From the NCBI GenBank assembly GCA_019096065.1, contig JAGUCH010000003.1:2852001-2916000 (forward strand): DNA of 64,000 nucleotides, read 5' to 3'. This DNA comes from Paracyclopina nana (Eukaryota > Arthropoda > Copepoda > Cyclopoida > Cyclopettidae). A model generated the notes under the pieces. The model was not told the DNA's origin and made no database searches. It worked only from the letters and a program-made list of their open reading frames with translations. A program made the translations under genes and the position numbers. Below, piece by piece: positions 16,582 through 47,024 of this stretch. How positions within the stretch are numbered: the stretch's first letter is position 1; each line of letters starts with the position of its first letter.

Positions 16582-17507
16582 TGGTGTGCGACGGTCACAC
16601 CCTCTGAAGCCTAGGATGGTTAGCATCGGCTTCATGGTCGCGGTACCGTTCGCAGCCTCCGGGTGCTGGCCGGATGTCTACCCGCCTTGGACCCGAAACC
16701 GCAGCCTCGGTGCTCCAACTCTGGCGAGATACATCACATGGCAAGCTTCAGTGCTGTAGACCAGTGATTAGGCCTCCTACCCACGTCCTCAACGGCCTCA
16801 ACAGCCTCAGACTAGGGTGCATAACTGCCCAGGAAACCTCTATACAAGTTATGGTCGAACAAAGTCAAACAAGGTTGTCTTATTCACTCAGCTTTTAACA
16901 CCACACAAATTAATGGCAGCAAATACAAAGAAATAAGTACTGCAGTAAATATTCTTGTGGCCATCTTCTTCATGCCTCAGCACACTTTGGAGAACTTTTG
17001 TGGGACAATAGCAGGGCAGAGCTCACTCAATGGGCCATGTGCACTTGGTCCATGTCTTGTTTCTCTGAAGTCCCCCATCGAACTCCCCGAGTCTTCTCCT
17101 TCTTCTCCCCTCGATGCATTGCAGCAAGTTCCATCAGCTTCCATCTGCTTCTCTCCGTTATCATGCAGCTGCAGGTCCTCTCTATGTAGCAGCTAGCAAC
17201 TCCTCCACACAATGGCTAGCAACTTCTCCACTCAAGGTCAGGTGAATTGCCATAGGTAAGGCTCAACGCATAGGTAGTAGCAGCAGCAGCAACAGCAATC
17301 AGAGAGTTGGAGGAGATGAAAAGGTGTTTTTTGAGAAAGGAGGTTTTGTGATTTTGAGGTGGTGATGTAGCGGTGAATGGGCAACCTTCCGGACTTCTGG
17401 CGGCTCCACGGGCTCCACGGTTTCCACAGGTTCCACTGGAGGGGTCCAATCAAGTCCTATTCTGGTCGTAACGTGCACCAGAGACATGATGTACTTATTG
17501 CCCATCA
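16582..17507 (-). repeat. Giant element 3' LTR
   Basis: It is 926 bp long. On the minus strand it is preceded by the purine-rich AGGGCCGGGGAA (17508-17519), a likely polypurine tract. It contains a short CAG/CAA triplet run near 17275-17300. The small frames inside it repeat identically in the other LTR and are not genes. Confidence 0.9.
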
Positions 17508-17611
17508 TTCCCCGGCCCTAACTTTTTCAGCTTTTGAAATATTTTTTAAGCTCTAAAAATATAAAAAAGGTGTCATTGATCGCTTACATCACATTAAGGT
17601 TGATACAGTTA

Positions 17612-19498
17612 TTATACTAACGTCGCGCCTCCCAGGCCACTCATTCGCACAGTAAGGCGCTGGTTTTGGTCAGCATCTTTCTTGCGATCTCCTCTATTGT
17701 AGCGAAGCCGTGAGCGGGACGTATTAGGTCTCACATAGCCTCCATCATCATAACATCGGCTGCATACTCGCCGCCTTTTCCAAATCAATATGCCCATACA
17801 CGTGAATCCCAGTGCTGCAGACAATAGGCTCACCGTCAGGATTATTTCCCAATTATTGAATAAACCTCCAAGTTCATCTTCAGGGAATTTTGTAAAGAAC
17901 TTCACCATATCACTTTCCCAAGGAGAGTCCTCGTATCCAGTACTTTGAGTTCCAAGGGAAACCTTACAATTGCTAAGGATCTGATAAGATCCTGGTTCCA
18001 GTACCATCGAGTTCTTGAAGTCATTTAAACAAGTCCTATTAATCATTGCACTTGAGACCAAATTTAAGAACCCTTTATAATTAGCACATCCCACATCAGT
18101 GAGCGTGTTAGTTTTAAGTGGCTCTAATTCACAGGCGTCAAATGGGTCACCCAGAGCTAGCCCTAAAAGTACTTTAGCACAGTGTTGGACTCCTTCTGTC
18201 AAGTCAAAGTCCTTGTTTTCACACACGGTTAAATTATGGTCATGAACGAAGCAATCGCTATAGATGGGTATTTCCCGAGACACAAACACTAGATCATTTC
18301 GACGGGTCAAATACCTATCATGCAGCAAGAATCCGTTTTTGCTTCGTGACACAATATGATATGTGACCTCAGGGGTAGGGTCCATTTCTTTATACCCAAC
18401 TATTCCCTGAGTGACAAAATCTCCACTCTGCTCTGTGTTCGCCAAAGGTTCATAAACATTAGTAATGGTGGCCGCATTTCTGTCACTATTATGCGCCAAA
18501 GTTGGTATGCTGAACCGTGTGCCTGCCTGTCCAAAATTTCTGGCAAATTGCACAACTGTGTCAGCATATGACAATACTTGCTGCAGATCATTTGGTATTA
18601 ATCCAGACTTCAAAAAGACCTTGCTAAAACCTTTCAGTAGTCGAAAGGCCAAAGAAACTTTCGGTGGAACTCTCAGTGGAGTGGTATTTGCTATCATGCC
18701 ATCGGTGAATTTTGTCGATTTACCTGATTCTGCTAGGGCCATCACGGCGTTGTAGGCCTTTTCAAGGAAGCTTTTCCTCCCAGACAATTCTGATTTGACA
18801 AAGTCCTTATGGGTGATGACAAAGTCATTTTGGACACACATCGTTGCCTTCCCATCACTGTGTGGTGCATGGGCTTTAACTGACGTCATGGTCTTCGGCC
18901 CTTGTCCCACAGTGAAATACCCCGTGATACACGGGTAACCTGCAATTATCTGATCGTCCGGTTTTTTCTCATACCCCACTTGAGGAAATGTGGTTTTCCC
19001 ATCCAAGGACATAGGTACCTCATTGACAATCCGAAATTTTACACATAAAGTTACCTTAGTGGCAAGAGGGCTTTCCTTTGCCGTATAACGTAATAGTTCT
19101 AGAAAAACGTCCATGTCTTCATGAGTTTTAGGGGCAAATGGTACAAACCCTTGACGTTTGGAACAAGCTTTGTCGATGGTGTTAGGGGTACTCTCTTCGC
19201 CAACTGCCAACATATTCCCGATATGGACCAAGTCCTCCTTGTCCTTAACTTCTTTTACCACGGTGTCAATATTATTCAGGACGCCAATTGTTGATTGCAA
19301 AAGGCCACTGTAATCCTTCGTATCTAACACCATAGCCTTTTTCACCATTCTAGGATGATGGACCACTCTAACTGGAACTAGGGCATGTCCAGAATGGCAA
19401 AGTGCCTCATCCAGTACGAACTGAGTATTTGGGTAGTTGGACAGGCCCCAAGTGCCAGATCCCAAAAGGGTGAGTATGAAGACCAATTCAAACGACAT
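17612..19498 (-). CDS. ORF5: envelope-like type I membrane glycoprotein of the giant element
   Basis: An intact 628-codon frame is the last ORF before the 3' LTR, the position of env in retroviruses and errantiviruses. It has an N-terminal hydrophobic signal (about residues 2-19), a long ectodomain with many Cys and a few N-x-S/T sites, and one hydrophobic membrane span near residues 548-572. The short tail is strongly basic (KRRRVCSRC). I see no obvious furin site (R-x-K/R-R) in the ectodomain and could not match it to a named viral glycoprotein family. It was presumably expressed from a spliced RNA. The frame has no breaks. A membrane protein is likely; a fusion role is inference from position. 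Confidence 0.7.
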   Translation of the reverse strand: MSFELVFILTLLGSGTWGLSNYPNTQFVLDEALCHSGHALVPVRVVHHPRMVKKAMVLDTKDYSGLLQSTIGVLNNIDTVVKEVKDKEDLVHIGNMLAVGEESTPNTIDKACSKRQGFVPFAPKTHEDMDVFLELLRYTAKESPLATKVTLCVKFRIVNEVPMSLDGKTTFPQVGYEKKPDDQIIAGYPCITGYFTVGQGPKTMTSVKAHAPHSDGKATMCVQNDFVITHKDFVKSELSGRKSFLEKAYNAVMALAESGKSTKFTDGMIANTTPLRVPPKVSLAFRLLKGFSKVFLKSGLIPNDLQQVLSYADTVVQFARNFGQAGTRFSIPTLAHNSDRNAATITNVYEPLANTEQSGDFVTQGIVGYKEMDPTPEVTYHIVSRSKNGFLLHDRYLTRRNDLVFVSREIPIYSDCFVHDHNLTVCENKDFDLTEGVQHCAKVLLGLALGDPFDACELEPLKTNTLTDVGCANYKGFLNLVSSAMINRTCLNDFKNSMVLEPGSYQILSNCKVSLGTQSTGYEDSPWESDMVKFFTKFPEDELGGLFNNWEIILTVSLLSAALGFTCMGILIWKRRRVCSRCYDDGGYVRPNTSRSRLRYNRGDRKKDADQNQRLTVRMSGLGGATLV

Positions 19499-19736
19499 CT
19501 TACCAGCACAAATTCTGATCAGAAACTATATGGGCCCCAAGACTGCTAACTTTCCTTATAAACCCAGACAAGTGTGGGCACGCCACCTTACTATGTCTAG
19601 ACACTCTTTGCTTTTTTCCATTGGTTTTTATTATCATAGCATGTCGACATGTATGGTAAAAAGTTAAGAGTATTGACCCACAACCAAGTATTTTATCAAT
19701 ATGTACAATTCGATTTTGAAGGGTAATTTCATTTTT

Positions 19737-20234
19737 TCAGAACTGCCCGACAAATCCATTAATCGCCTCAGTGAATACCTTGATGTCGCTGGGGGTCATT
19801 TCCTCCATTTTAGCCTGGAGGAGATAGTTCACACGCTCCTTATTCTTATCGACTTTGGAGCGCTTAGCGTGCAATATGTCTGGTCCATTCGTTCCTGCGC
19901 CAAAGGGGCGCCCGCGCGCTACATCGGCGTACAGTCTAGGTCCTCGCCTTGGTTTTTGTTGCCAAGACTTCTCCACAAACGCGGCTAGTTTTTGGGGCCT
20001 GGCCCCGGCTGTGTACCTCACGCATTGCGGATACATTCCAATGGCTCGATCAACAAACTGGGCTACCATGGTAGGCAGGAGTGCGGTCATATCGATCTTC
20101 ACGTCCAATTTTCGTGGGGCTTGAGCCACACCATTGTTAAGGCAGGACGGCGGTCCCACATACAGTTGCAAGTAAGGTGACGTCAAATCATGGAACATCC
20201 GTGGATCCCAAAATGATGAGTCCAATGTTGGCAT
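19737..20234 (-). CDS. ORF4b of the giant element, unrecognised
   Basis: This 165-codon minus-strand frame overlaps the end of ORF4a by 47 nt in another frame. It has no hydrophobic span. A basic middle segment (KSWQQKPRRGPRL) is followed by a Lys-rich stretch and a mostly helical end. The frame is open upstream of its first ATG for about 25 codons. It may be the true continuation of ORF4a, through a frameshift or a splice near 20280-20340. Function unknown. Confidence 0.5.
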   Translation of the reverse strand: MPTLDSSFWDPRMFHDLTSPYLQLYVGPPSCLNNGVAQAPRKLDVKIDMTALLPTMVAQFVDRAIGMYPQCVRYTAGARPQKLAAFVEKSWQQKPRRGPRLYADVARGRPFGAGTNGPDILHAKRSKVDKNKERVNYLLQAKMEEMTPSDIKVFTEAINGFVGQF

Positions 20235-21111
20235 GATCTGAATGCAGCCTCGCTTGGTATAATGTTTGGAGACTACTACAGGGAGTTGAGCTCCACCCTG
20301 TCCACGGATTCCATGAACATAATACCCAACAGCTGTTGGGCTCTACGGCAGACCAACTTCTGACATTGGCCAACTTATGGACATTCTCATCATATTCCAT
20401 CTTGTCAGGCAAATTGTAGACTGGTAGATTGTCTAGCATCGGAAATATAACAAGGAAATCGGGAATCTCCCCACCTTTACCCACTGGCTCGATAATCAAT
20501 TCAATGCAGTCAAAGTTTTTCACCTTCAATGGCCTACGAGGCTCGGTCCGTTCATAGGGTTCTCCATTTATCCTAATCGTTAGGTCAAAAGGCACCTCCT
20601 TTCCAACAGTCATGACCTCTTTCGTAGCTATCTTCAACAGGCTTGCATCATAATGCTGCTGTATAGTAGCTCTGGTCCGGCTCGCCTCCCTCGCATAGGC
20701 CTGTAGACCCTCCATGTGGGGAGGCCTGATCAAATCCTCAAATGGCAATGGGTACCCCAAACTGGAGGATACCCTTTCCAATGGGACCTCGAGGAGTTCC
20801 TCTTGGTCCTGGTGTCTAGTCGTCTGATTCTGGGCTTGGTTCTCAATATTGACAGCAGGCATGTTGCGATCCATAACTGGCTCATCATCCTTTAGGAGCT
20901 CACTAACCTCTTGCTCGTTGAACTCTCCAGTCTTATCAGTCTCCATCATAGAGACCAATGCAGATTCTCCTTCCATGGATTCGGTGATCAGAGACATCCT
21001 TAGATTATCGAGGCTATTCAAGCTATCGCTCATTTCCAGACTGTTGCTGTAAGGCCGTAACCTGCCCTTTTTATACGCATCTTTACAGATATGCCCCACA
21101 CTCTCGGGCAT
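20188..21111 (-). CDS. ORF4a of the giant element, unrecognised
   Basis: A 307-codon frame starts with ATG at 21111. The N-terminal 120 residues are acidic and Ser/Gln-rich and look disordered. Residues about 125-250 look folded, with a beta-rich stretch (VPFDLTIRINGEPYERTEPR, then IELIIEPVGKGGEIPDFLVI). The last 60 residues are Ser/Trp/Cys-rich and unlike the rest, consistent with reading out of frame after about 20345. Its start faces the divergent gene at 21398. I do not recognise the family. Confidence 0.5.
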   Translation of the reverse strand: MPESVGHICKDAYKKGRLRPYSNSLEMSDSLNSLDNLRMSLITESMEGESALVSMMETDKTGEFNEQEVSELLKDDEPVMDRNMPAVNIENQAQNQTTRHQDQEELLEVPLERVSSSLGYPLPFEDLIRPPHMEGLQAYAREASRTRATIQQHYDASLLKIATKEVMTVGKEVPFDLTIRINGEPYERTEPRRPLKVKNFDCIELIIEPVGKGGEIPDFLVIFPMLDNLPVYNLPDKMEYDENVHKLANVRSWSAVEPNSCWVLCSWNPWTGWSSTPCSSLQTLYQARLHSDHANIGLIILGSTDVP

Positions 21112-21397
21112 TTAAATGCGTGGGTTGTCCCTTTTAAAAAACCCAAGGTCATTTTTTGTCTAGGTAAAAAAGAACAAGGTAACAGGACTTATACCACTTC
21201 CTTATAAGATGGGCGCGTGCGCGCACGCTCATCGTCGAGTTGCACGGACATTTTTGACTTCCTAGGTCGTGAAACGTAGCGAGGGAGCAACAGGCAGTTG
21301 CAACTCTCAGCTTTCACTTAATGTTAATCATTCTCCCATCGGACTTCGTCCAAGCTGGTCACTTTTCTAGAGATATTCCAATCCCAATCAAATCGCG
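21112..21397. promoter_or_regulatory. Putative bidirectional promoter inside the giant element
   Basis: The 286 nt separate the starts of two divergent genes, ORF4a (minus) and the spliced plus-strand gene. It holds a GC-rich palindrome, GCGTGCGCGCACGC, near 21215, and TATA-like CTTATAAG just before it. Promoter activity is inferred from position. Confidence 0.35.
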
Positions 21398-22448
21398 ATG
21401 GTCATCTTGGCCTGGGTTTCTCTAACCCCAGAGGGCAGCTCTGCAGAGGCTCCCACGGAGGTTCCAATCCAGTCATCAACAGTGGATCCAGCGCTTGTGG
21501 ATTCTCAAACCACGAGCCCAGTAGGTCCTAATGTTGCTATTCCTGGGAGTGGCATTTCTGAAGCCGAGGGTGGACCTGGATTTGGCCCAGCTCCTGTCGA
21601 CCCCTTTGAAGTGGAGGTGTTTGACCCCCGAGATTTAATGCCAGCGGTACCAAATGGTTATCATCCCGTTGCCCCTCAGAGGGACTGGATCGATGAGGTT
21701 TTCAATTATCACCGATACGGTGTAATGGGATGGATCGGTCTTGGAGCCTCCATTGGGATGGCTTTGGTAAGTTCAACCTTATGGCTAGTTTTGCAACTAT
21801 GGCCAAATTTTTATTTACCACCTCTTCCTTACAGATTTTGCTTGGCATGTTGGTGTACTTCTGCGTGTGGACATCACGATGGTGCCGTAGGTTCGTGGCC
21901 ACGTTTCGAGCTATTCGTACGGAGTCAGCGGCTGCCAGTGGAGCCATGCAAATGCTTCCAACAAAGGCCCCATCTGAGCATGCAGCGGTATTTCACTGCT
22001 GTACACCAGAGGTCCGAGCTTTGCCACCAGCCCCGACTATGCGTGACCCTGATGTCCATTCGCTCCAAATGGCAATGGCTGCCATGGACCCCTATGGGAC
22101 ACTACGCCGGAACCCCAGCATCATGTCAGGGCTGGCCCACATCTATGACGTCCCTAATCCCAAGGGCTGGGTAAGGACCTATCAATTTATGAACTGTAAA
22201 CAGGTTACTCATGTACTCTTTTTCATGCACCTTTTCAGGTACCTGTTACTGAAGGGTGCGGGCCGCGGACTTTAAAGAGACGGTCTCGCCGGGCTCGAGC
22301 CCGAGATAACCGTCGCTTGGATTCGGCAGCAGAGTCCATTCCGGACAGAGACGAAGTCAATGAGGCTGAACCTCTCTCAATCGCAGATGAGGACCAGGAT
22401 TCAGCTGGATCAAAGGCTTCCCAAGACGTCAACAGCGATGCCAACTAA
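21398..22448 (+). CDS. Antisense-strand spliced gene for a single-pass membrane protein in the giant element
   Basis: Three exons (21398-21766, 21835-22170, 22239-22448) join in phase 0 at two textbook introns, both of the form GTAAG...CAG and both 68 nt, giving 304 aa. The frame is open only when spliced. Residues 1-100 are Pro/Ser/Thr/Glu-rich. One hydrophobic span (about 109-136) is built across the first junction and is followed at once by RWCRRF, so the C-terminus is predicted cytoplasmic. The rest is Ala/Met/Pro-rich with an acidic end. It runs opposite to gag-pol, so it must have its own promoter and must not be spliced in genomic RNA. No family recognised. Alternative: a captured host gene. 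Confidence 0.6.
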
Positions 22449-22569
22449 GGATCGCCACAAACTTATTGCAAGACGAAGAACGCTCTCTTTTCGCACGTAT
22501 TTAAGCGCGTTTTCTGTAACTTTTCGCACTTTGTTCTTCTTATCGCGTGCAAATTCTCACTTTATAACT

Positions 22570-22675
22570 CGCACTTCCCGCAGTCTTCGCGGACTTTTCC
22601 ACCTTTTCGAGATCTCGCAAACTTTTCGAGGCCTCGCAGACTTTTCGAGGCCTCGCAGACTTGCAGACTTCAAAG
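22570..22675. repeat. Short tandem repeat after the antisense gene
   Basis: A unit of about 20 bp, CTCGCAGACTTTTCGAGGC with variants, occurs three to four times in tandem. It lies between the stop of the spliced gene and the next exon-like cluster. Confidence 0.7.
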
Positions 22676-22954: not shown

Positions 22955-23675
22955 CATGGCGGGCTTCCTCCACGGTCTGTTCGTAAGTTTTTATTTCGAA
23001 TTGAATCCGTTGAATCCTTTCATAAAACTGTATCTTTTCATTGGGAATGTAGAATCCTTCAACCACAACGGTGGCACCGGCCACCGAGGCTCCCGTAGGG
23101 GCGCCCCCCGCGGCCGAGTCCGCGGCGGGGTGGCCCCAGCCACCTGCGGCCCCGCCCGCAGCCCCTTTGGGCAACGAGGAGTGCCCTCCCTGCCCCGTTC
23201 AGGGCTTCGTAAGTGCATTATTCGTTATCTATTTGGTCAAAGCTCGAAAGCTCGACTTTTTCTCGTATTGCAGGCCGAAGAGATCCTCTAGGGCGTGGCC
23301 CTGAACGTGGCAGGGGCGGCCACCTATTATTTGGTGGCCCTGCCCGCCCTTGCCTGGATCCACCGGGCCAGGCCAAGGGGCCTTTACCGGCTCGTAAGCC
23401 GGCTCTGGGACGAGCCCCAGCACCTGCCCAGGGTCTCGGCCTGGGTCCTCCACCTGTTTGTGGGGGAGGAGGACCCTCTCGAGGGAGTCGTCTAGTAAGT
23501 CTAACTTATTCACTTAAGCTATCACAGCTTCACTATATTCATCTTATCTTTTGCAGAAATCGTCTCGTTATCGGTAGGCCACCGCACCGGCCAGGGCTGG
23601 CCCCAACGTGGCCCAAGGCCAGCCCGCCCCCACCAGCCCGGAGGCCTCCCTTTTTGGGACAATAAAAGTCCACGT
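22955..23675 (+). other. Probable second spliced antisense transcript, Ala/Pro-rich
   Basis: Good splice signals order exon-like pieces on the plus strand: ATG at 22955 to a donor GTAAGT at 22985; an acceptor near 23050 then an Ala/Pro/Glu-rich GC-rich exon to GTAAGTGC near 23210; two possible acceptors near 23274 (GCAG) and 23290 (CTCTAG); a donor GTAAGTC near 23494; and an acceptor near 23557. With the nearer acceptor the frame stops after five codons. With the further one it continues into a hydrophobic stretch (AATYYLVALPALAW). AATAAA at 23662-23667 could end the transcript. The local GC content is far higher than its surroundings. I do not give a protein call. Confidence 0.4.
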
Positions 23676-26600: not shown

Positions 26601-27269
26601 TAGAGTTTATATCCATGTTCCTTGCTTTCGTACAAAGCATTTTAACTTTATTAAAAACTATTGTAAGCCTATCCCCCTTCTATAGTAGTATGGGGCATGC
26701 ACGCTTAAGTACTTAAGTACCGAGCAAAGCTCAATTTGTATCGGTATTTGTCAGGAAACAGGACAAATGTATTTGTCCCATCAGTATTGTACGAGTTACT
26801 AATACAAACTTCGTTTTATTTTGTCAAAGCAAGCGAGGTTTGTATTGTTGTTGGATTGAACAAGCCCTCGAGGAAGGCCAAGTTCAATGCTTTAGTAGCA
26901 TTTAACCTTTTCTCTTTTTTTTTTTTTTTATATATATTCTTAGCATTGCTAACGAACTGCAAAAGGTGCATGTTTCGTTAGTTGTTTTCTTGCTGTCAAT
27001 GTAATGTTCAGCAACTTATCATTACCTTTATGCATATTGTACCTTACTGGCGGGCATGCGAAGAGACATTGCCCGTTAGTATCCATTTCTATGATCTTTT
27101 TGGCAAGCGGACAAATTCAAGTCCGCAATTGACATTTTGCATTAACATACTTTTGGGTGCGCTTGATTGGTAAAACGGTGCGCCCATATTGGACTGACAA
27201 AGTAAAGGTAGTGACCCCATAAAATATGGGCACTACGATTACCGTCATCACGTCCTTTCTTACGAATCT
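23676..27269. other. Long spacer of the giant element, with five dispersed copies of a 23-bp motif
   Basis: There is no convincing gene in 3.6 kb. A motif close to GCATTCCAGCTCGGCCTTGA recurs at about 23948, 24023, 24137, 24176 and 25056, in the same orientation, with variants. A TATA-like GTATATATACTCC occurs at about 25350, and a good donor follows (CAGGTAAGTATG near 25423), so another plus-strand transcript could start here. A T-run lies at about 26915-26930. Confidence 0.5.
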
Positions 27270-30200: not shown

Positions 30201-33200
30201 TTCCATAGCATTCGCTACCTGCTTATATTTAGCATCCAATAGTGGCTTAGCAATTATCATCTTAGAATAAACATCGACAAATACTAACAGGTCTTTTGCG
30301 GAAGACCCTTTGACTAAAGTTTCATCGAACTTGGCCAAATCAATCATTACCAATTCCCATGGTTGAGTCGGGATGCGGAAACGCCCCTTCCCAACAAACC
30401 TAGTATTAGCTTGGCGGTATAAAGCACAATGCATGCACGCACCAATAATAATACGACTGATTCTGGCTGAGTAAGTTGAATACATAGATTGAGTAAAAAG
30501 AGTATTAGTCTTTTTACTTCCCAAATGGTTATGTAATAAATGAATACATGCCATTAGGTACACACAGTTGGGCATACTCATATATACTTTCGTATTGGTC
30601 GCAACGCTAAAAGGTAACTTTACATTCTTGCGAATGACCAACAGGGCACCGTCAAGGACACGATATTTTACTGCAACATCTAGTGGTACTTTCTCCGGAG
30701 GCGAAAGCATAATTAGATTTATTATCTTTTGTGTTTCTTCACAATTTTGTTGCAACTTAATGAGTAGGTTGCGTGTAATTCCTGGTAAATGTGGCGATAT
30801 TCGCCTTTTAACAGTGACTGTATCTACTCTTAAATTATTTTCTATGTGATTTACTGGAGAGTCAAAATCAGCTTCACCATGGAATGAGTGAGATAGTTTT
30901 GAAAGTATCTCTTCCTCAAGAAATTCCTCATCGTCATGTTTTGCGCGAAGTAAGGTTGACGTGTCGTCGTGCATGAATGGTGGCTTCGTGCCGATCATGT
31001 CTACCCATTTATCATTTAGGCACTGCAACCTTTTCTGGAGTAGAGTTTTACTCATAGTTCCAGAATTCACAAGTGTATCATACACATGTGTAAGTAATTC
31101 CTGTGTCGTCAGCACCTTGTCTTTGATTGCATCGGGCAGAGGGTATTTATTTGCATAAATATCCTTCGTAATCTGTCCCGCAATAGAGTAGGGCGCATAA
31201 AATACAGTTTCGCCTTCTGGCGTTTGATGGTATTTATTTAATAATACATCAACTACTTCTACCTCTGTGCGAGGTACAGCCCTCAATTTCCATGCTACAG
31301 GCAGGGAATAAATACGAGCTGCTAGTCTATGAGTAAATGCATCTTTACCAGTAAACGAACTAGCCAGCACGCTGGCTATTGATAGACAATCCGTAACTAT
31401 GACTAATCGCTCATAGGCGAATAGTATACTTTTAAAATGATTTATCATTGTTAACACTCCTAATGCTTCACGCTGAAACGAGTGGTACGAGAGGCAAACT
31501 GATAAAGGAAAGCGTGCGCTGTGTGCACCAACACACACAGCTTTCCCATCCTCATTCACCTCCATTAATAAAGCTGAGGTGCTAATTACCCCAGAATCAA
31601 CCACTAAATAACCTTCTTTAAAACGTGGCAATGCCAGCGACATACCTGTTTTAATCTCGTCTATTACTTTATAGAAACATTTTTCTTGGAAAGCAGTGAA
31701 GGTGAACTTCCCTGTTTTTCCTTGTGCTGTCTGTAATACATCAAGCAGTGGAGCTGTGTATGTAGCCATATTGGGGCAGTACTGGCTTAACCAGTTTGTC
31801 ATTCCAATAAACTTTTGCAGCTGTTTCTTGGTTGTAGGCATAGGGAAATCATCAAATGCGGACCTGAATTTATCGGGCATACGCATAGTCATAATCCCAT
31901 TTTCATCAATAGATATTAGGTGCCCTAAGACTGTAGCTTCTTTAACACCTAATTGAGTCTTTTTAATTTGTAATAGGGCATTTAAGTCCTTGAGGCTTTG
32001 AAACAACTTCCTCAAGTCACCTAAATGTCGTATGTAATCATCCAACGTAGCAGGCCTAGGCTTGCCAGGGTTCTTACAGGCCACGACCAAATCGTCTACA
32101 TATACACACGTAAAGGGCAATATCTCAGGGTTAAGGGCCTGTTGGAGGAGCTCTGCGAACATTCTCGGAGCAATGGCGATCCCTTGTAGGCATGACTTAC
32201 TTTTCAAAAAGACTGATCTATATATACTGCGAGGGGACGTTACCGCGAAGCAGCACATATCAGCACTATCAGAGTCCACAGGTAAGTTATCGTATCCGGA
32301 TGTCACATCGAAAGATGACATCAAACATGAATTAGATAACATCCCTAGCAAGGTAGGGATAGGTGGCACTATGTGCTCCGAAGTCGTAAATATCAGATTT
32401 TTATTAAAAGATGTTAAGTCAACTAATAGCCGAGGCTTGCGTTGCTTCATAGGCAGCTTTTCATCATTTGGCCTTGAAGTCAGGAAACAAGGGCAGGCCG
32501 AGTACCTATTAAGTGACCTATCCACAATCTCAATTAATCCAGATGACAGCATTAAAGCTATTTTACGGTCAACCTGGGTAGTTTCATACTCTGACATGTT
32601 GAATACTTTTGGCACTAATGGTTTATCGTCCTTTAGCTGGAACTTCATGGGTTCAACATTCCATAGCCTATATGATCTAGGATCCTCCGAGAATATAGTC
32701 TTATATTCTATTAAGAGGTCCCTAAAGTCCTCTCTAACTTCATCCGGAATGTGTTCTAGATCCATGTTCAGGATCGTTTCTGGTTTCAATGGGAATGTGT
32801 AACCTGCTACTCCGTTTAAAACACGGAGAGGGTCAAATTCACTAGGGAATTTCAGAAGGAGATTATAAACCTCATCATATAGTTTTTGGTTATTTTTCTC
32901 ATCCTTAGAAAGCTCCAGGCTAGCTGATACAAGGTCTAGTTCAGAAGGACTTTTCAGGACTGTTTGCCTGATACTGGTATCAACAATAGGACCTTCATAA
33001 ATAGTAGTGAAGCTTTTAAGTGGCACTTTGATGCCCATGTTCTTTGCCAAGCAAGGCTTGCATGAGCAACCATGTGGTTCAAGTACAAAGGGTATAAATT
33101 TACCAAATTTTGTCTTTATATCCTCTTTGGTAAGGTCATCAGGGTACATTTGTAACCCAGATAACACTAGCAATGCAGCGGTGGTTGCCATACAAAGTGG

Positions 33201-35273
33201 GTCACCTACATGCACATCGCCATCCATAAGTGTTCTAATCCACACGTCGTCGGCCACATTTTGGTACCGTAATTGACCAATTATTATGTACATAAGCGTG
33301 GTTAAGTAGCCAACATTCTCAGCATGTTCGCTAGGGACATGGAATATTAACTCAACATTGTTGGACAACTTAAACATGATACCATGAGCTCCAAGAACAT
33401 TTAGTTCAAAATACTTATCTAGTTCATTTCTTTGATAAGCAAGTGGGTAATTCTCATACTCATGTATCATCATAGTTATTATGACCCTATCCATCCCAGT
33501 GAGGTAGGATTCAATAGGACACAAGGCAATGGTCATACATGGTGGGCAAATATACTTATATTTTAGCCATACTACTTTAAGTTTATCCACCATCATATTC
33601 ATCTTTATTACAATGCGCTTTTGTTCGCCAGACAAAAGTTTATGTCCTGGGACAATAACAGCCCACGGTAATTCATCCCATTTTTCTCGTTTCATAAATT
33701 TGCTAATTATCACATCAGTTATCTCTTCGTAACCGTCACTTTGGTTAGATGAGATAAATACGTAATTTCCTTTTCTACTAATCAAGGGCTTGTGGCTTCC
33801 CCTTAATGGCTCATAGGCATTGAAAACATGCATATCAGTAAAGGAAAGACCATTTATGTCAGTAAACTGCACAATTACATGCGAATCTAAATAATTGCAG
33901 TAACATGACTCCATTTCATGCTCCAGGGCCTTTAAACTAATGTTAGCCACATGGGCTGCAACCGTACTCTTAAATTTCTGTTTCTTGACAATCCTGGCTC
34001 GCCCAATCACTGCATGTGCATTTAAGTAGATGGGATCCTCAGTATTATTCCCAATATTTACTGGGAAAGTACCTTTACGAGTGACTGCAGTAAGTGCCCC
34101 CTCAGAGGTCACTCCGCGGTACTCGTTACTAGGCATAAAGTTTAAGTACTTATCCACCAATCCGGAATAAACATTTTTCTGGTGATGAGTACGACCAAGT
34201 TCGTCATCTTCGTCAGAGTCAGAATCTATTTGAATGTCATTACTGATGACAGGTAAATCATGAGGTAAACTAGCCATGGTGGTCACTTCTTCTCCAGGGA
34301 GCAGAGTGATCCCTTCATTTATTGCCACTGGGTAGAAAGCCTCTTTTGATAGTAAGAGTGGAATTTTCTTATGTTTAGGTTTTCCAGGGAAATCCATAAA
34401 GTGCTTTCCATCTTTACTAGTCATCCGGACATTATTGTCCACTAATAACGAGTTCCCTATCATTAATAGTGTATCACAATCAGACACAAGGAAAACAGCC
34501 TGTCTGATTAAAACACGATTTCCAAATGCAACTTGAATAGAGACAGCTTCATTCCCAGGGAATTCTTCCCCATTAAAGTTCTTAATTACATAATTAGTGT
34601 CGACCCGAGGTAGAGTGTAACCAATTTTGTCTTCAATCAGTTTTACAAGGGTGCGTGATATTATCTGCACCATTGCTCCACTGTCAAATAAAGCATGCAA
34701 ACGTATTTTTCCAGTTATCTCCACTGGTATAAAATACCTCTCACAAACATTATGTAGCTTTAATGAGTATATACTCAGCATGTCATCGTCAAGTTCCGGA
34801 TTCGGTAAAGGTTCAAAATGTGTTACTGGCTCTGCTTTATTAGCATTTACTGAGGCTAGATGTGTAACGATACCATCATTACTACAAGTTTGTTGCTCAT
34901 CATTCGTGCTACCTTTTACAAAGTAGTACCATAAAGCTATTATTGCTCCACTACAGATTACTGTAATTGGCCAATAATTCCAACCAAATAAGCAATATTG
35001 ACATATCGTTATTGCAATCAGTATTATGCTAATCTCAATCACAGTCATAGTATGCTGAGGAACAAACCGACTTTTTCTACCCCTTATTGCAAGGACCAGA
35101 GCCTTTTCATCCTCACTTACACTAGTCATAATTTCAGCATTTTTTACAGATTGCTCCTTTAAATAATCAAAGTAAGCTCGTCCTACTTCTTTGTTACATT
35201 CTCCCCTCATAAATGAAGGCAAGATGTAACTGTCTTTATCATTCTTATTGGGATTTTTTGTACTTGGTCCCAT
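27270..35273 (-). CDS. ORF3: giant-element Pol (protease, RT, RNase H, integrase) with N-terminal membrane spans and a long tail
   Basis: 2667 codons are open without a break. In order: two hydrophobic spans (about 78-97 and 101-118); an aspartic protease with LFDSGA at about 195-200 (DSG instead of DTG); a long segment of unclear role; RT with the catalytic YVDD near residue 1057 and the LGHL motif; RNase H (VVDSGV, VIVTDCLS); integrase with an HHCC-type zinc part near 1585-1615, then catalytic Asp in MIDLAKF (about 1643), Asp in LLADNGAQ (about 1705) and Glu in AYAENAIR (about 1746). Beyond about 1900 comes a disordered tail of roughly 750 residues, rich in Ser/Pro/Glu. It carries two related basic modules near the end (LSPLRFLPHNLRRRK and PIRILPRRQLRERK). 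The start is at the UAAUG junction with ORF2. All catalytic residues seem present. Confidence 0.85.
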   Translation of the reverse strand: MGPSTKNPNKNDKDSYILPSFMRGECNKEVGRAYFDYLKEQSVKNAEIMTSVSEDEKALVLAIRGRKSRFVPQHTMTVIEISIILIAITICQYCLFGWNYWPITVICSGAIIALWYYFVKGSTNDEQQTCSNDGIVTHLASVNANKAEPVTHFEPLPNPELDDDMLSIYSLKLHNVCERYFIPVEITGKIRLHALFDSGAMVQIISRTLVKLIEDKIGYTLPRVDTNYVIKNFNGEEFPGNEAVSIQVAFGNRVLIRQAVFLVSDCDTLLMIGNSLLVDNNVRMTSKDGKHFMDFPGKPKHKKIPLLLSKEAFYPVAINEGITLLPGEEVTTMASLPHDLPVISNDIQIDSDSDEDDELGRTHHQKNVYSGLVDKYLNFMPSNEYRGVTSEGALTAVTRKGTFPVNIGNNTEDPIYLNAHAVIGRARIVKKQKFKSTVAAHVANISLKALEHEMESCYCNYLDSHVIVQFTDINGLSFTDMHVFNAYEPLRGSHKPLISRKGNYVFISSNQSDGYEEITDVIISKFMKREKWDELPWAVIVPGHKLLSGEQKRIVIKMNMMVDKLKVVWLKYKYICPPCMTIALCPIESYLTGMDRVIITMMIHEYENYPLAYQRNELDKYFELNVLGAHGIMFKLSNNVELIFHVPSEHAENVGYLTTLMYIIIGQLRYQNVADDVWIRTLMDGDVHVGDPLCMATTAALLVLSGLQMYPDDLTKEDIKTKFGKFIPFVLEPHGCSCKPCLAKNMGIKVPLKSFTTIYEGPIVDTSIRQTVLKSPSELDLVSASLELSKDEKNNQKLYDEVYNLLLKFPSEFDPLRVLNGVAGYTFPLKPETILNMDLEHIPDEVREDFRDLLIEYKTIFSEDPRSYRLWNVEPMKFQLKDDKPLVPKVFNMSEYETTQVDRKIALMLSSGLIEIVDRSLNRYSACPCFLTSRPNDEKLPMKQRKPRLLVDLTSFNKNLIFTTSEHIVPPIPTLLGMLSNSCLMSSFDVTSGYDNLPVDSDSADMCCFAVTSPRSIYRSVFLKSKSCLQGIAIAPRMFAELLQQALNPEILPFTCVYVDDLVVACKNPGKPRPATLDDYIRHLGDLRKLFQSLKDLNALLQIKKTQLGVKEATVLGHLISIDENGIMTMRMPDKFRSAFDDFPMPTTKKQLQKFIGMTNWLSQYCPNMATYTAPLLDVLQTAQGKTGKFTFTAFQEKCFYKVIDEIKTGMSLALPRFKEGYLVVDSGVISTSALLMEVNEDGKAVCVGAHSARFPLSVCLSYHSFQREALGVLTMINHFKSILFAYERLVIVTDCLSIASVLASSFTGKDAFTHRLAARIYSLPVAWKLRAVPRTEVEVVDVLLNKYHQTPEGETVFYAPYSIAGQITKDIYANKYPLPDAIKDKVLTTQELLTHVYDTLVNSGTMSKTLLQKRLQCLNDKWVDMIGTKPPFMHDDTSTLLRAKHDDEEFLEEEILSKLSHSFHGEADFDSPVNHIENNLRVDTVTVKRRISPHLPGITRNLLIKLQQNCEETQKIINLIMLSPPEKVPLDVAVKYRVLDGALLVIRKNVKLPFSVATNTKVYMSMPNCVYLMACIHLLHNHLGSKKTNTLFTQSMYSTYSARISRIIIGACMHCALYRQANTRFVGKGRFRIPTQPWELVMIDLAKFDETLVKGSSAKDLLVFVDVYSKMIIAKPLLDAKYKQVANAMEEVISLFGVPKTLLADNGAQLTTNKALQRLVDRYKIKELCHYRTLSPYKHSNAYAENAIRIIRSALVLNSNSYNMRLCDVFKTSIYAINNRPLTYLAYTDDKGVKITPTPFSLFFDKMPTYHLGRDVFEILSESEDKIHKAEWRQRMREYDLEEQFHLEKMKATERPSFKPEIGSLVLVIKHPINKQRYKFMDDLFEVIDIGQHSTVTVKPYLYDGLTREVSLDHVKLYRFHELYRFLPEKLSNLLKRPYTPEEILRKKARNEVIEFLEGAAPESHEYSLRNRTKASSIVASQSSLISQSSATDTEPSAIHQTYKRSGSILMQKAASLFKPSDILRIQEENKQLVQKQWEQYDRKKLEDNYLANNADNNFVRKEASESLSDTDTDDFIERAIALSANTGPNEAFYEDMLALSQRGPPTFAEMAQQERLYPNLPSVKPDHISTPDHSNVSEGTLAGLSPVKWAFLGQYRDQHEPAIPESPERYHTPDQSISETPNKDNDNIEEVVEKAASLIVPSKFDIDLESLSAGLEGMQLAIPTEPFGGNAQEDDNGSSDSDDTTSVYFTAKKHLRRTPLSKNIQKAVRSAIDIVRRQLELSPRKRPPSPPIDNPMEGPSAPKPEIYGAEGGEPQVRYTVMKSPVRKPDLQPSNSELPNAGVTQIVPNTDVLEHSSAKDTPVGVPYTPEKVQFAHPATPEVTHPTVRQVSPVVPQPGTQDPPEVTVRAPYELEKLSPLRFLPHNLRRRKNVNYRAMAGFREYNKNHVPASSPAIAQPVPPEALTHPEVALTVEQDTSPPQAVQQPPDTNPVASSDQPSGSSATPFAGPNEPEASAAAQPAVDPGISEPTPIRILPRRQLRERKGTVDYRELAGIRKYGKEKSKAGKEQKYFPNVPRIAPLDREDKEFARVRFTNTKERPDQKERELLEEVIPNWKLNKNMAAVPDYIQFLKATGMDHQDDSNINEMKRLRLTYDELYKLAFKKFK

Positions 35274-35275
35274 TA
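35271..35275 (-). promoter_or_regulatory. UAAUG stop-start junction between ORF2 and ORF3
   Basis: On the minus strand the TAA ending ORF2 shares its last A with the ATG of ORF3. Pol is in the -1 frame relative to ORF2. Termination-reinitiation at UAAUG is known from some non-LTR elements and influenza B. In an LTR element it would replace the usual frameshift or readthrough. Confidence 0.75.
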
Positions 35276-36811
35276 TTGTTTACGAGCAGGTCGCGTCTTC
35301 CAACACTGTTCTCCCCTAAACTCAAGGTGCAATCCTTTACACAATGGGCACAATGTACCATCGTTTCTAATCGAGGTCAAATTTGTGTTCGGATAATTCG
35401 TACACTGTGTAGCGTAATGCAATTGGTTGCAGAACAAGCACCCACCAGTCTGGAGAGGGTTTCCTTCAGGCAATTTAGATGTATCTATGTTAAAAGTTTT
35501 TCCCAGCCTATTTATTTTCTCGGATGGTGATTCAGCTTTCATCATAGCTACTTCAACAGCTTGCCTACTCAATTCAAAATTTGCTCGAGCCAACTCGCTT
35601 TGTAGCTCATTTATTATTTTAGCACTTCGTTGACTACGGCCAGAGGCTGCCGACATAGTTCTAGCACTGTCTAACACCTCTTCTTCAGTAGCTTCAACCA
35701 TAGCAATTCTAGGTTTGGCACGCATATTGGGTACCATTGGCAGCCTCTCCTCTTTATGAGCCCTATCCAGGTCCCTTGGCACATAAGTACCTAGGTCACT
35801 ACCAATTAGGTTCATCATGATGTTGTAGGCGTGCAAACTCCTAGCAGGTATATTCGCTCTCAGCAGATAGTCGTTGTATTTGTTTACTAACGACTGGTAA
35901 TTCTGAGGCCAATGACGTCCTAGGAGTGCAAAACCATCAGAGATGGCTTCAGAAACTGCATGAGCATCTCCGCCATCACCAATGGTTGTGCTATGTATCT
36001 TCATTCGTAGTCGAAGGATTGACTTAAGTGTGGCAGTGAAGCACTCAGTAGGCTTCCGGATCATCTCCTGAATGAGGAAGTATGGGTCCTCTTTACGTAC
36101 AAACTGCGTGTAATTAAAGATATCTTGCCATAGCAATTCCATACCATCTTTTCCTTCTCCAGCCATCCCCTTAAAATACTCACTAGTATTCTGGGATGAA
36201 GCCTCACACATAGCTGTTAACAAGGCTGCATGAGACCAATGCTGTCTGCCAGCCTCGTTTGCCATATAGTCCAAAAAATTTATTATATTCTCAGCAGTTA
36301 ATGATGAACTATGTAGGTCAAACTTTTTAGTGTATTTGTGCCTAATCTCCTTCATTGACTGTGAGCTTGCATACTTAACATGACCATTCGTAGGTACAGC
36401 AATGTAACCTCTCATGGTGGTCGGATCATAAATGCTCCTAGAAATGTCAGCTGATACTCCAGCGGCTACACTTATCTCAGGGGTCTTTAAGTAGCCTTCT
36501 GCCAATATTTGCTTTTGGAGAGAAGTAAACTCGTCCCTCGTGCTAAGTACACTAAAGAGCTTCTGCATCTCAATCATTTTCTTTCCTGAGGATAAGTTTG
36601 GGTCAACCATCTGAAGGATTACTCGTCGGGCTGATTCCACATCTTTAATTTCATCAGTGTTAATTAACTTCAGCCTCTCTGAAATTGGAGCAGACTCATC
36701 ATAGATGACGTCAGTTTCCGGCACCATTCTTTCCTTCGTCGCAGCATCTACTATGCTTAAGGTTCTTTCTAGATTCTTACTGAAAATAGACTCTACTTTT
36801 GCCCCAACCAT
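35273..36811 (-). CDS. ORF2: gag-like protein with zinc-knuckle-type Cys/His motifs
   Basis: 512 codons, intact. The central part (about residues 110-350) is predicted mostly helical, as in capsids. A basic, helical region follows. Near the C-terminus are C-x2-C-x3-H-x4-C (CLFCNQLHYATQC) and C-x2-C-x3-H-x7-C (CPLCKGLHLEFRGEQC), which resemble nucleocapsid knuckles. The last residues are basic. It precedes pol directly and its ATG lies within the last codons of ORF1. The most likely role is RNA binding and particle formation. Confidence 0.7.
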   Translation of the reverse strand: MVGAKVESIFSKNLERTLSIVDAATKERMVPETDVIYDESAPISERLKLINTDEIKDVESARRVILQMVDPNLSSGKKMIEMQKLFSVLSTRDEFTSLQKQILAEGYLKTPEISVAAGVSADISRSIYDPTTMRGYIAVPTNGHVKYASSQSMKEIRHKYTKKFDLHSSSLTAENIINFLDYMANEAGRQHWSHAALLTAMCEASSQNTSEYFKGMAGEGKDGMELLWQDIFNYTQFVRKEDPYFLIQEMIRKPTECFTATLKSILRLRMKIHSTTIGDGGDAHAVSEAISDGFALLGRHWPQNYQSLVNKYNDYLLRANIPARSLHAYNIMMNLIGSDLGTYVPRDLDRAHKEERLPMVPNMRAKPRIAMVEATEEEVLDSARTMSAASGRSQRSAKIINELQSELARANFELSRQAVEVAMMKAESPSEKINRLGKTFNIDTSKLPEGNPLQTGGCLFCNQLHYATQCTNYPNTNLTSIRNDGTLCPLCKGLHLEFRGEQCWKTRPARKQ

Positions 36812-37791
36812 GTGTTTAGCCGTGATTTCGTGTAGTAAGCTTTTACCGTGTTCAATTCCTGAATATTCAATTGGCCTCCTGACAACATCTTTTGTACCAT
36901 TCTATGTACAACTTCCATTGGGGGAAGCGTGATAGAATTAGTCAAGTTATGCAAGTCACGAGGATTCATCTTAGTTGAGGTCAGGACTGACTTATTTTGG
37001 CCATCCAGTTCAGCTCCTGTAGTGAACTCGTGGTGGTTAGTCCCAGGTGGACTTGCTATCGAAGACATATCTGGGACAGCATTACTCGTCTCATTGTTAG
37101 GGAAATGTACACTCTGGCCTGGGGTTTTCTGTGGCTTCAGGTTAAGCGGTTCATTTAGGAAATAATCGTTTTGTAGGCCATAAAGCCTCGCTACAATAGC
37201 AAATCCATCTCCAAATGTCCGTATCTTTAGCCAATTCCTGGATATCAGTGTCGCAACCATTTCATGTGTCCCTGGCATTTGGTTAGTCAGGAAGCTACCA
37301 TCGGCCTCATGGATACGCTGCATATCTTTCTTTTCCTCAATACGAGTTAGGAACTCATCCAGACCAAAACAAATGCATAATAAGGCACATGTCGTGCTTG
37401 TCAATGAATTAGGGTCAAGTGCATCAATATATTTAACCACATTTACAACTTGGCCTACTGGATCTTTAAGAGGCATAGTCCTAATGATTGACTTAATATG
37501 ATCATCCAACGGTCTAATTGGCTCCCTGGGGACAAGTACTATTTGAGTCCTCTCCCATACAGCTGTTATTTGTGCTTGAGTTACCGTGACAAACTCTAGT
37601 GCTTCAGGGTAAGCAACGTGTGGCATAAAGCTTTGCAAGGCAGTCCTGCTGGTCCCATTCGGGTTGCATTGGGATAAGTACCCTTGAAAAGTGTCCTCAT
37701 TAATCCCAAGATGGTTCAACAATCGCTCCTTTACTTTCGTAACTTCCTCAGCCAGAGTAGGTCCAGCGATCCTAGAATCCTGATTAGCCAT
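36793..37791 (-). CDS. ORF1: first ORF of the giant element, structural protein candidate
   Basis: 332 codons, intact, and the first long frame after the leader. The first 215 residues look globular and helical. The stretch from about 215 to 285 is polar and disordered, and the last 45 residues are helical and basic. No Cys/His knuckle is present; those are in ORF2. It overlaps ORF2 by 19 nt in a different frame (ORF2 is -1). A matrix- or capsid-like function is inferred only from position. No family recognised. Confidence 0.6.
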   Translation of the reverse strand: MANQDSRIAGPTLAEEVTKVKERLLNHLGINEDTFQGYLSQCNPNGTSRTALQSFMPHVAYPEALEFVTVTQAQITAVWERTQIVLVPREPIRPLDDHIKSIIRTMPLKDPVGQVVNVVKYIDALDPNSLTSTTCALLCICFGLDEFLTRIEEKKDMQRIHEADGSFLTNQMPGTHEMVATLISRNWLKIRTFGDGFAIVARLYGLQNDYFLNEPLNLKPQKTPGQSVHFPNNETSNAVPDMSSIASPPGTNHHEFTTGAELDGQNKSVLTSTKMNPRDLHNLTNSITLPPMEVVHRMVQKMLSGGQLNIQELNTVKAYYTKSRLNTWLGQK

Positions 37792-39031
37792 TCTTATCTT
37801 GTAAAAGGCGTGACGGAGTCACACTGAGTATTTCTTATCTCTTAGAGGTGCAACGGAGTCACACGCAATATTCTGGTCTTAGTACACTACTGTGTGTACT
37901 AAATTCGGCAGTACCGAATTGAAAGCTATACGCTGTTCAAAGCACAGGGAAGCTTGTCCTAGTTACTACGCCGCGTCAAGTGACACAGAGAAAAAAGGTT
38001 GCAATTGCTAAGCTCGTTTATTTATTTTTTGTCGAGGCTATGAGCGGCCTAGACAAAACACACACACACACACGCACAGGTACACTCACTTATGGTATTA
38101 TAACGAAAGGTTTAAGGTTTAGCACTACTGGTGCTACAGGTGGTAGGGTTTTTCTTCTAAGTCTCTGAAACAAAGGTGCATCAACTTTTTACGCAGAAAA
38201 GGTATGCCACTTCGCCAACCAGTGTCGACTCAGTGAATGAAGAATAAGTTTGCCCACTCCTCCTCGAGTTGCGGGCCGGCCAACCTTCCCTGTGCCCTCG
38301 GCAACTTGTCCAAGGTTAGCCAGTTTTTTGGGCCCCAAACACGCATTTTCCTTTGTGGCTCCCACTCTGGCTCCACGCGTGGCCTATTTGGGGTTCATTG
38401 ACTCACAGCGGAGTCATGGATTACATCATCTTCTTCCATCTGTGTGGCCAAACCCACGGACGAGACCCACTAGTGTCGCAACACTCTTGCGCTCACTCGC
38501 CCCATTATGGATAGGCAACAGAGGCTCAGGTCGCAACCTGCACCTTGGCTGGCTTTCCGGCTGCCATGGCACCCATACTCCAAGCTATGCCATGCGGAGC
38601 CTGCACGCATGCATTCACCTCCGGGAAAGACAGTGTCATTGTTACTTTGTGTAGGCCCATCATCATAACAATGGTCCATGGAAGACTTCATCAACGGGCT
38701 GGTGGTACGTCACGGCCTGTACCTTCTTGCACTCCCCGCGCGCCAGTTCCAACCCGCCAACGGCATCAATGCGCAATTTGGGTCTAAGGGAATCTAAAGC
38801 CTACGCACCACATAGGCCCAAATGCCATCGGAGTGACCCCCATCGGCTCGTCAGCCTTCGGGATTTTGTACTGTATTAGACACACCCTGATCGCAATCAG
38901 CGTGCGGCCCAACCTGCGCCGCAGAGCAGGAATCCTGATCCACACCAAGACATTTTCTGGGACTTCATTGTTTTTGGTCATCAAACCTTTAGGAGAGAAA
39001 GTGGCCTTCAATCCCTCCGGGGCCTCCAAAA
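37792..39031 (-). other. Leader of the giant element with primer-binding site
   Basis: About 1.2 kb lies between the 5' LTR and ORF1. Three nt inside the LTR edge the minus strand reads TGGAGGCCCCGGAGGGAT (39011-39028), the complement of a tRNA-like 3' end ...GGGGCCTCCA. The primer would be a tRNA with U as discriminator base; identity unassigned. A CA/TG microsatellite lies at about 38058-38076. No ORF here is convincing. Confidence 0.6.
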
Positions 39032-39957
39032 TGGTGTGCGACGGTCACACCCTCTGAAGCCTAGGATGGTTAGCATCGGCTTCATGGTCGCGGTACCGTT
39101 CGCAGCCTCCGGGTGCTGGCCGGATGTCTACCCGCCTTGGACCCAAAACCGCAGCCTCGGTGCTCCAACTCTGGCGAGATACATCACATGGCAAGCTTCA
39201 GTGCTGTAGACCAGTGATTAGGCCTCCTACCCACGTCCTCAACGGCCTCAACAGCCTCAGACTAGGGTGCATAACTGCCCAGGAAACCTCTATACAAGTT
39301 ATGGTCGAACAAAGTCAAACAAGGTTGTCTTATTCACTCAGCTTTTAACACCACACAAATTAATGGCAGCAAATACAAAGAAATAAGTACTGCAGTAAAT
39401 ATTCTTGTGGCCATCTTCTTCATGCCTCAGCACACTTTGGAGAACTTTTGTGGGACAATAGCAGGGCAGAGCTCACTCAATGGGCCATGTGCACTTGGTC
39501 CATGTCTTGTTTCTCTGAAGTCCCCCATCGAACTCCCCGAGTCTTCTCCTTCTTCTCCCCTCGATGCATTGCAGCAAGTTCCATCAGCTTCCATCTGCTT
39601 CTCTCCGTTATCATGCAGCTGCAGGTCCTCTCTATGTAGCAGCTAGCAACTCCTCCACACAATGGCTAGCAACTTCTCCACTCAAGGTCAGGTGAATTGC
39701 CATAGGTAAGGCTCAACGCATAGGTAGTAGCAGCAGCAGCAACAGCAATCAGAGAGTTGGAGGAGATGAAAAGGTGTTTTTTGAGAAAGGAGGTTTTGTG
39801 ATTTTGAGGTGGTGATGTAGCGGTGAATGGGCAACCTTCCGGACTTCTGGCGGCTCCACGGGCTCCACGGTTTCCACAGGTTCCACTGGAGGGGTCCAAT
39901 CAAGTCCTATTCTGGTCGTAACGTGCACCAGAGACATGATGTACTTATTGCCCATCA
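39032..39957 (-). repeat. Giant element 5' LTR
   Basis: 926 bp, the same length as 16582-17507. I noticed one substitution (39145 A against 16695 G). ACAG follows at 39958-39961 and matches 16578-16581. Confidence 0.9.
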
Positions 39958-39961
39958 ACAG

Positions 39962-46960: not shown

Positions 46961-47024
46961 ATGGTAGGCTTGTTTAGAGTGAAATCGGGTCAAAGGCAAT
47001 TAAAAGTTGCCATTCATGCTGCAG
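46961..47024 (+). other. Short conserved exon-like ORF with splice donor (copy 2)
   Basis: Identical to 3128-3191 over 64 nt and likewise followed by GTAT. It lies 160 bp upstream of the next plus-strand gene, but I found no in-frame acceptor joining the two. Confidence 0.25.

Follow-up and report, generated by a model that had tools for sequence, protein, structure and literature searches.

A 64,000-nt stretch of contig JAGUCH010000003.1 from Paracyclopina nana (hereafter the window, to which coordinates refer unless stated otherwise) carries a 23.4-kb element that we read as a recently inserted copy of a giant Ty3/gypsy-like, Env-bearing, endogenous-retrovirus-like family with a large accessory gene set, including two predicted antisense genes, AS1 and AS2; we put the probability of this reading at about 0.74. 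Across the assembly searched (92 Mb, 10 contigs), most copies of the family have one gag frame, a TAATG junction, and a pol of ~2660-2670 amino acids (aa), with ORF3 and Env predicted in the sense orientation and AS1 and AS2 in the antisense orientation. The predicted pol, ORF3, Env, AS1, and AS2 frames all bear the codon pattern of purifying selection.

Structure and copies of the giant element

The element spans 16582-39957 and is bounded by long terminal repeats (LTRs) that differ at 1 of 926 positions. All of its long sense open reading frames (ORFs) lie on the minus strand, which places the 5′ LTR at the 39957 end. When joined with a single ACAG, the two flanks correspond to window 10970-10680 (reverse strand) over 291 nt at 99.7% identity, without a gap across the junction, so the insertion sits inside an older repeat. 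The original prediction had described paired 926-bp LTRs with one mismatch, a clean ACAG duplication, and insertion into an older LTR; direct alignment of the LTRs bears out the first, the presence of ACAG on both outer sides and the gapless rejoined site bear out the second, and the third stands as far as an older repeat is concerned, its label as an LTR being the earlier reader's own. The hallmark set of Ty3/gypsy elements is present, namely LTRs, TG...CA termini, a short target-site duplication (TSD), and stretches resembling a primer-binding site (PBS) and a polypurine tract (PPT). At the one PBS match that was read for a primer tRNA there was no tRNA, that place being another copy of the element. 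The features outside the antisense genes are:

16578..16581, no strand: left target-site duplication ACAG, outer flank of the LTR
16582..17507, minus: 3′ LTR, 926 bp, one mismatch to the 5′ LTR
17508..17522, minus: purine-rich, PPT-like stretch adjoining the 3′ LTR (from sequence)
17612..19525, minus: Env-like ORF, 637 aa, with N-terminal hydrophobic stretch and C-terminal transmembrane (TM) anchor
18815..19246, minus: Env residues 94-237, predicted C-type-lectin-like domain (CTLD; from predicted structure)
19737..21111, minus: ORF3, no known domain, broken in the window copy into 307- and 201-aa frames
21112..21397, no strand: 286-bp gap between the divergent ORF3 and AS1 starts, candidate bidirectional promoter
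23670..27269, no strand: fast-changing stretch with no recognized genes (from sequence comparison)
27270..35279, minus: pol, 2669 aa, with two hydrophobic segments, protease-like region, middle region, reverse transcriptase (RT), RNase H, integrase, and long variable C-terminal extension
35271..35275, minus: TAATG, gag stop overlapping pol start, the same in the sister copy read
35273..37791, minus: gag, split in the window copy by a frame disruption into 332-codon and 542-aa frames
39007..39028, minus: putative primer-binding site, identical in the sister copy read
39032..39957, minus: 5′ LTR, 926 bp, TG...CA ends
39958..39961, no strand: right target-site duplication ACAG, outer flank of the LTR

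The element family is present in dozens of copies. With the window LTR as query, at least 40 full-length LTR matches and one partial match were found in the assembly. The best 40 of 127 candidate matches were scored, and these fall into 18 same-contig pairs and four singles; 14 of the 18 pairs are spaced 22.1-22.7 kb apart and four are 28-35 kb apart, and both members score identically against the window LTR in 12 pairs. Five other LTR pairs that were compared base by base have 0 mismatches each, and 4-bp TSDs were also found in two further copies and in one copy of the sister family described below. Given this LTR identity and these TSDs, the family insertions are young. The stretch 20900-27300 is common to at least 24 of the scored copies including the window, mostly as two or three pieces, and copies elsewhere share the ORF order. 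The original prediction of a giant, young LTR element that combines pol with env-like ORFs, ORFs of no known kind, and divergent genes is thus supported, the layout recurring in other copies. On contig C4 of the assembly (our handle G000; locus L019, ~862-906 kb), two copies apparently lie in tandem with one LTR common to both, the PBS stretch of the next copy directly following the 3′ LTR.

The predicted ORFs exist, all on the minus strand, with stop-to-stop lengths of 341, 542, 2669, 307/201, and 637 aa, but two of the original divisions are peculiar to the window copy. Of 40 other copies that match residues 25-542 of the second window ORF at 98-99%, 34 have a single frame of 863 aa where two gag-like ORFs had been read; two gag genes and a programmed gag frameshift are both rejected on this ground. 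The remaining six comprise four of 855-871 aa, one of them with a TGA, and two that are shorter; the gag search returned 87 matches in total, those beyond the 40 being partial, more divergent, or sister copies. Likewise, where 307/165 were listed as separate ORFs, 22 of 29 other ORF3 loci have a continuous frame over the part read, which starts after the first ~30 residues; the other seven are broken or shortened. Since both gag and ORF3 are broken in the window copy, it need not be autonomous.

The pol frame measures 2669 aa in the window and in one further copy; another two copies have frames of 2661 and 2663 aa, and in a fourth copy pol is broken. Its Pfam match to RVT_1 (1.2e-12) is above the cutoff; matches to protease (0.004), RNase H (3e-4), and rve (4.5e-7) are below it but in the right order, and rve exceeds the cutoff in the sister pol. 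The order protease-RT-RNase H-integrase fits Ty3/gypsy (Metaviridae), and among solved structures the best match is Ty3 (7e-24), followed by 8r0s ("Enzymatic polyprotein"; 1e-13), 7kse ("Peptidase A9/Reverse transcriptase/RNase H"; 1.5e-10), and Pr125Pol (2e-9). The element therefore appears Ty3/gypsy-like, the placement of its RT resting on the order of best matches. Two hydrophobic segments precede the protease (residues 80-121; window 34917-35042), in the sister family as well, and ~560 conserved residues without a known domain lie between protease and RT (window 32700-34382); the predicted model of this middle region (residues 290-870) has a mean predicted local distance difference test score of 35, too low for the fold to be read from it. 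The ratio of nonsynonymous to synonymous substitution (dN/dS), calculated here and below by pooled pairwise Nei-Gojobori comparison in which the pairs are not independent, is 0.106 for pol over three sequences (two more copies with broken or altered frames were dropped), with values of 0.020 for RT-RNase H, 0.071 for the middle region, and 0.232 for the C-terminal extension.

For ORF3, dN/dS is 0.073 (22 sequences, selected for an open frame), and for Env it is 0.132 (32 sequences, from which one shifted-end locus was dropped and one with an internal stop was kept). These low values indicate that Env and ORF3 were kept while the copies diverged, a maintenance that would be expected if transmission needs both. 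Env is without a stop in 29 of 31 other copies (at least 98% identity over residues 1-637 or 1-635; the search gave 71 rows, those beyond the 31 being partial, more divergent, or sister copies). In being a separate ORF after pol with a hydrophobic N-terminus, a C-terminal TM anchor, and evidence of selection, Env resembles a retroviral envelope gene. As to homology with known viral fusion glycoproteins, it has no Pfam match above cutoff and no meaningful sequence match in the PDB, and none of 48 pattern matches in viral contigs encoded an Env relative. In the predicted model, residues ~94-237 adopt the overall CTLD fold, the model elsewhere in Env being too poor to judge; a sequence profile of the domain gave no lectin match. 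The canonical sugar-binding motifs of C-type lectins are EPN or QPD, and WND, and neither EPN/QPD nor WND is present in the Env sequence. The predicted CTLD suggests that Env may be a cell-attachment glycoprotein.

A second, sister family is ~44% identical to the main family in Env and 46-50% identical in gag. The sister copy read has LTRs of 707 bp with one mismatch and a PBS-like stretch identical to that of the main family, and its order is the same: gag, pol (as two overlapping frames in this copy), a spacer with the antisense genes, ORF3, and Env. Sister ORF3 is 45% identical over 352 residues; in a second sister copy (L052), it is broken into several frames.

The predicted antisense genes AS1 and AS2

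What the original prediction called divergent genes is present and is more aptly termed a pair of predicted spliced antisense genes, located between the fast-changing stretch and ORF3:

21398..21766, plus: AS1 exon 1 (predicted protein of 304 aa in total; open frame, splice sites)
21835..22170, plus: AS1 exon 2 (open frame, splice sites)
22239..22448, plus: AS1 exon 3 to stop, with AATAAA at ~22775
22956..22982, plus: AS2 exon 1 (predicted protein of 128 aa in total; open frame, splice sites)
23053..23208, plus: AS2 exon 2 (open frame, splice sites)
23292..23495, plus: AS2 exon 3 to stop, encoding a hydrophobic segment and basic amphipathic tail, with AATAAA at ~23661

The introns are 68, 68, 70, and 83 nt long in the window, the first being 67 nt in four other main-family copies. 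All four introns are GT...AG in the window and in these four copies (5/5), and both genes are open and of the same length in the window and in 4/4 of the others. Over the five copies, dN/dS is 0.19 for AS1 vs. 1.70 and 1.01 in the shifted frames and 0.11 for AS2 vs. 1.23 and 4.08. Searched in its own frame, AS1 exon 2 was stop-free at 62 of 62 places, the divergent full-length ones being 56-82% identical, whereas a query one base off frame gave 43-48% identity at the divergent places and stops in 8 of 60; this off-frame search amounts to an unplanned control that favors the proposed frame. AS2 exon 3 is open in 15/15 aligned copies, among which its length differs by whole codons. Among these 15, one has GTTAGT at the donor in the 3′ untranslated region (UTR) and one has an altered AG at the upstream tandem acceptor. 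The introns are no more divergent than the exons, and intron decay gives no support to the gene models.

Both genes recur in the sister family. Sister AS1 (284 aa) is 29% identical and sister AS2 (132 aa) is 56% identical, with the same exon order, phase 0 boundaries, and a downstream AATAAA (located by eye for AS2 and by script for AS1). AS2 is thus more conserved between the families than gag or Env. In the 6.4-kb stretch that was compared, the one DNA match between the main family and the sister spacer at E 1e-5, ~240 nt at 75-76%, was AS2 exon 3. A search with this exon found 82 places: the best 54, at 76-100% identity, have no internal stop; 15 sister-like places are at 58-70%, two with a stop; seven are at 41-43%; and six are fragments or weak. 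The seven distant exons lie in G000 at C3:2723326, C3:3138221 (L076), C3:3609343, C5:6528284, C7:4161973, C1:9472877, and C2:884107. Like AS2, the L076 exon has a TAG acceptor, a hydrophobic segment, a basic run, and a stop-donor fusion. Among the Env matches listed, none is close to any of the seven, which may represent either a more divergent third family or a family of host genes.

AS1 and AS2 are predicted to be membrane proteins and are candidate multi-exon genes. Neither matches Pfam at E 0.1, including the TRP28 domain. AS1 contains a single clear hydrophobic segment (2.21), within which intron 1 falls in both families, and the tail motif IYDV is found in both. AS2 starts with MAGF and has ~60 aa ahead of its hydrophobic segment, whose hydropathy is 1.57, just under 1.6 (1.74 in the sister); a basic run (HRARPR) and an amphipathic tail follow. 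The amphipathic moment of 0.89 was reached in 19 of 1000 shuffles and that of sister AS2 in 12 of 1000; for the third set the figure was 173 of 1000, which is not unusual. At the end of AS2 intron 2 are tandem acceptors 18 nt apart (window 23268-23291), and the sequence between them, GCCGAAGAGATYCTCTAG, is nearly unchanged across both giant families. The upstream acceptor, if used, would end the protein at AEEIL, ahead of the hydrophobic segment.

The 286-bp gap between ORF3 and AS1 contains the palindrome CTTATAAG, kept in 4/4 other copies read; the sister gap has other TATA-like sites and is without the palindrome. This gap measures ~290-330 bp in both families (sister: L051 sense 7514-7840), and both have TATA-like boxes.

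Comparison with known elements

Errantiviruses, or insect endogenous retroviruses, have a Ty3-like pol and a separate 3′ env-like ORF, and the TSD of gypsy is 4 bp. The P. nana element shares these three features; it is about three times longer, has the additional ORF3 and antisense genes, and encodes an Env that matches no Pfam family and partly models as lectin-like. A literature search of partial coverage found no LTR element combining spliced antisense membrane-protein genes with Env, and literature on Env proteins with a C-type lectin domain and on antisense or spliced LTR accessory genes, also partially covered, held no match to this gene set.

Among giant elements, a close parallel is Burro of planarians, a group of giant gypsy-like LTR elements with an internal region of >20 kb, an env-like domain, and extra genes, which are discussed as possible integrated proviruses (PMC6431247); the same source treats Ogre, a large LTR element of plants. 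The P. nana element is likewise a giant Ty3/gypsy-like animal LTR element with an internal region of >20 kb, an env-like domain, and extra genes. Burro is described as encoding a single polyprotein of 4,873 aa, in which env is placed in frame between gag and pol, together with apoptosis and ubiquitin domains (PMC6431247), whereas gag, pol, ORF3, and Env are separate here, Env comes last, two multi-exon genes are antisense, and Pfam finds no apoptosis or ubiquitin domains. The plant elements Retand and Grande are reported to have a long region from pol to the 3′ LTR with antisense extra ORFs (PMC11963269, PMC7264820), an arrangement that AS1 and AS2 share, and the title of a reference listed there ascribes to the Grande accessory gene its own promoter (PMC11963269/PMC7264820). 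As these sources describe them, the antisense ORFs of the plant elements are plain ORFs, most of which have a TRP28 domain, and the word intron occurs in neither paper; PMC7264820 calls for a search for antisense and spliced transcripts. AS1 and AS2 differ in being multi-exon genes for predicted membrane proteins, without TRP28, beside an Env-like gene.

Two further comparisons concern the antisense products. The sORF2 of the Drosophila MDG1 group is described as resembling the fusion-associated small transmembrane (FAST) proteins; the candidates reported are all in forward orientation in elements without env, were filtered for an N-myristoylation motif, and have ectodomains of ~30 residues (PMC11952523). 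Like sORF2 and reoviral FAST proteins, AS2 would be a short membrane protein with a single segment, followed by basic residues next to the membrane and by an amphipathic stretch; it differs in being antisense and spliced, without an N-myristoylation motif, with ~60 residues before the segment, and beside Env. The antisense genes HBZ and APH-2 of human T-cell leukemia viruses resemble AS1 and AS2 as antisense accessory genes of retrovirus-like elements. HBZ and APH-2 are described as nuclear proteins (PMC11963269), unlike AS1 and AS2, which are two genes for predicted membrane proteins in a giant Ty3-like element.

Alternative explanations, expression model, and significance

The reading given at the outset competes with several others, of which the most credible, though we think it rather improbable, is that AS1 and AS2 are host genes taken up with their introns, antisense, by DNA-level transduction and still serving a host role. 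Their ordinary short introns and polyA signals are what host genes would have, and the seven AS2-like exons at 41-43% lie away from the listed Env matches, L076 showing the same exon logic. However, any such uptake must have come before the two giant families separated, neither protein has a Pfam domain, and the seven places are spread over five contigs with near-equal scores (33-37 bits), as a third mobile family would be. Less probable still is an ordinary intracellular LTR retrotransposon in which the env-like ORF, ORF3, and the antisense ORFs are captured passengers of gag-pol without a role. The broken ORF3 of the window, the seven of 29 other loci where it is broken or shortened, and the fast-changing 3.6 kb without a recognized gene between pol and AS2 would suit passengers; the dN/dS values of 0.07-0.19 for Env, ORF3, AS1, and AS2 would not, nor would the retention of these genes, with their order unchanged, in a family whose Env and gag are only 44-50% identical.

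We consider it very unlikely that AS1 and AS2 are not genes at all, their frames being a by-product of constraint on sense-strand RNA and their splice sites due to chance. The AS2 exon 3 region is GC-rich and is the only DNA-level match to the sister spacer, as an RNA element might be, but amino-acid replacements are avoided only in the proposed frame, length differences in the aligned exon are whole codons, and the sister has the GT-AG sites and intron phases as well. No Rfam family reaches threshold in 16500-40000, and with the codon pattern explaining the conservation, and no Rfam family near threshold, a structured RNA is not favored. Hardly any weight attaches to the idea that the 23.4-kb unit was joined in assembly or consists of several nested elements. 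A spacing of 28-35 kb, seen in four of the 18 LTR pairs, is what nesting would produce; the other 14, on several contigs, recur at 22.1-22.7 kb, and gag, spacer, and Env co-occur in many copies. An assembly join in particular is rejected on this recurring spacing, the shared stretch 20900-27300, and the clean empty site.

If the element is instead an Env-bearing retrovirus-like unit, as we prefer, its full-length LTR transcript would be packaged and copied as in other Ty3-like elements, and pol would be translated by stop-start reinitiation at TAATG. ORF3 and Env might be spliced from the LTR transcript rather than start from an internal divergent promoter; in the window, a pyrimidine-rich acceptor-like site lies just ahead of the ORF3 start. 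The internal divergent promoter would transcribe AS1 and AS2 from integrated DNA, and the transcripts would be spliced. An intron on the sense strand would be lost from RNA before reverse transcription, but those of antisense genes would not be recognized in the sense genomic RNA and so would survive; as these introns would be kept in genomic RNA, AS1 and AS2 would have to be read from integrated DNA. Both may act as membrane accessory proteins that aid transmission from cell to cell or in the germline. Probably the window copy was either produced with the help of proteins from other copies or damaged during or after insertion. More tentatively, and in our view doubtfully, the family might be an undescribed lineage with two separate transmission systems: a sense-strand Env that attaches through its lectin domain and, from the internal divergent promoter, the antisense intron-bearing AS1 (signaling-type, with its IYDV tail) and FAST-like AS2. 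Antisense placement would then keep the introns and regulated splicing, and the tandem acceptor could switch AS2 between membrane and truncated forms.

Elsewhere in the window, 7.7-16.6 kb holds an ordinary Ty3/gypsy-like element in inverted, rearranged copies, whose ORF at 10987-14283 includes tandem repeats of 69 and 78 nt. The region is flanked by direct repeats (87-300 nt, 92-100% identical) that lie ~44 kb from each other (1088-3195 and 45261-47028). On the minus strand, 49216-50550 and 54643-57125 encode a receptor kinase, adjoining a weak match to the TGF-beta receptor 2 ectodomain (E 0.045), and an HSP90 ending in KDEL, both of which point to an animal host.

Moving through RNA normally costs a retroelement its introns. 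If the reading presented here is true, two selected intron-bearing antisense genes would be a way round this loss, and AS1 and AS2 would have been acquired or kept by the element at the DNA level. The family would be a further case of giant Ty3-like elements in animals, beside planarian Burro. With a lectin-like Env and a small membrane protein, retroelement transmission would become testable in the host animal, and the presence of dozens of copies, of which several have identical LTRs, would open the question to study in a living system.

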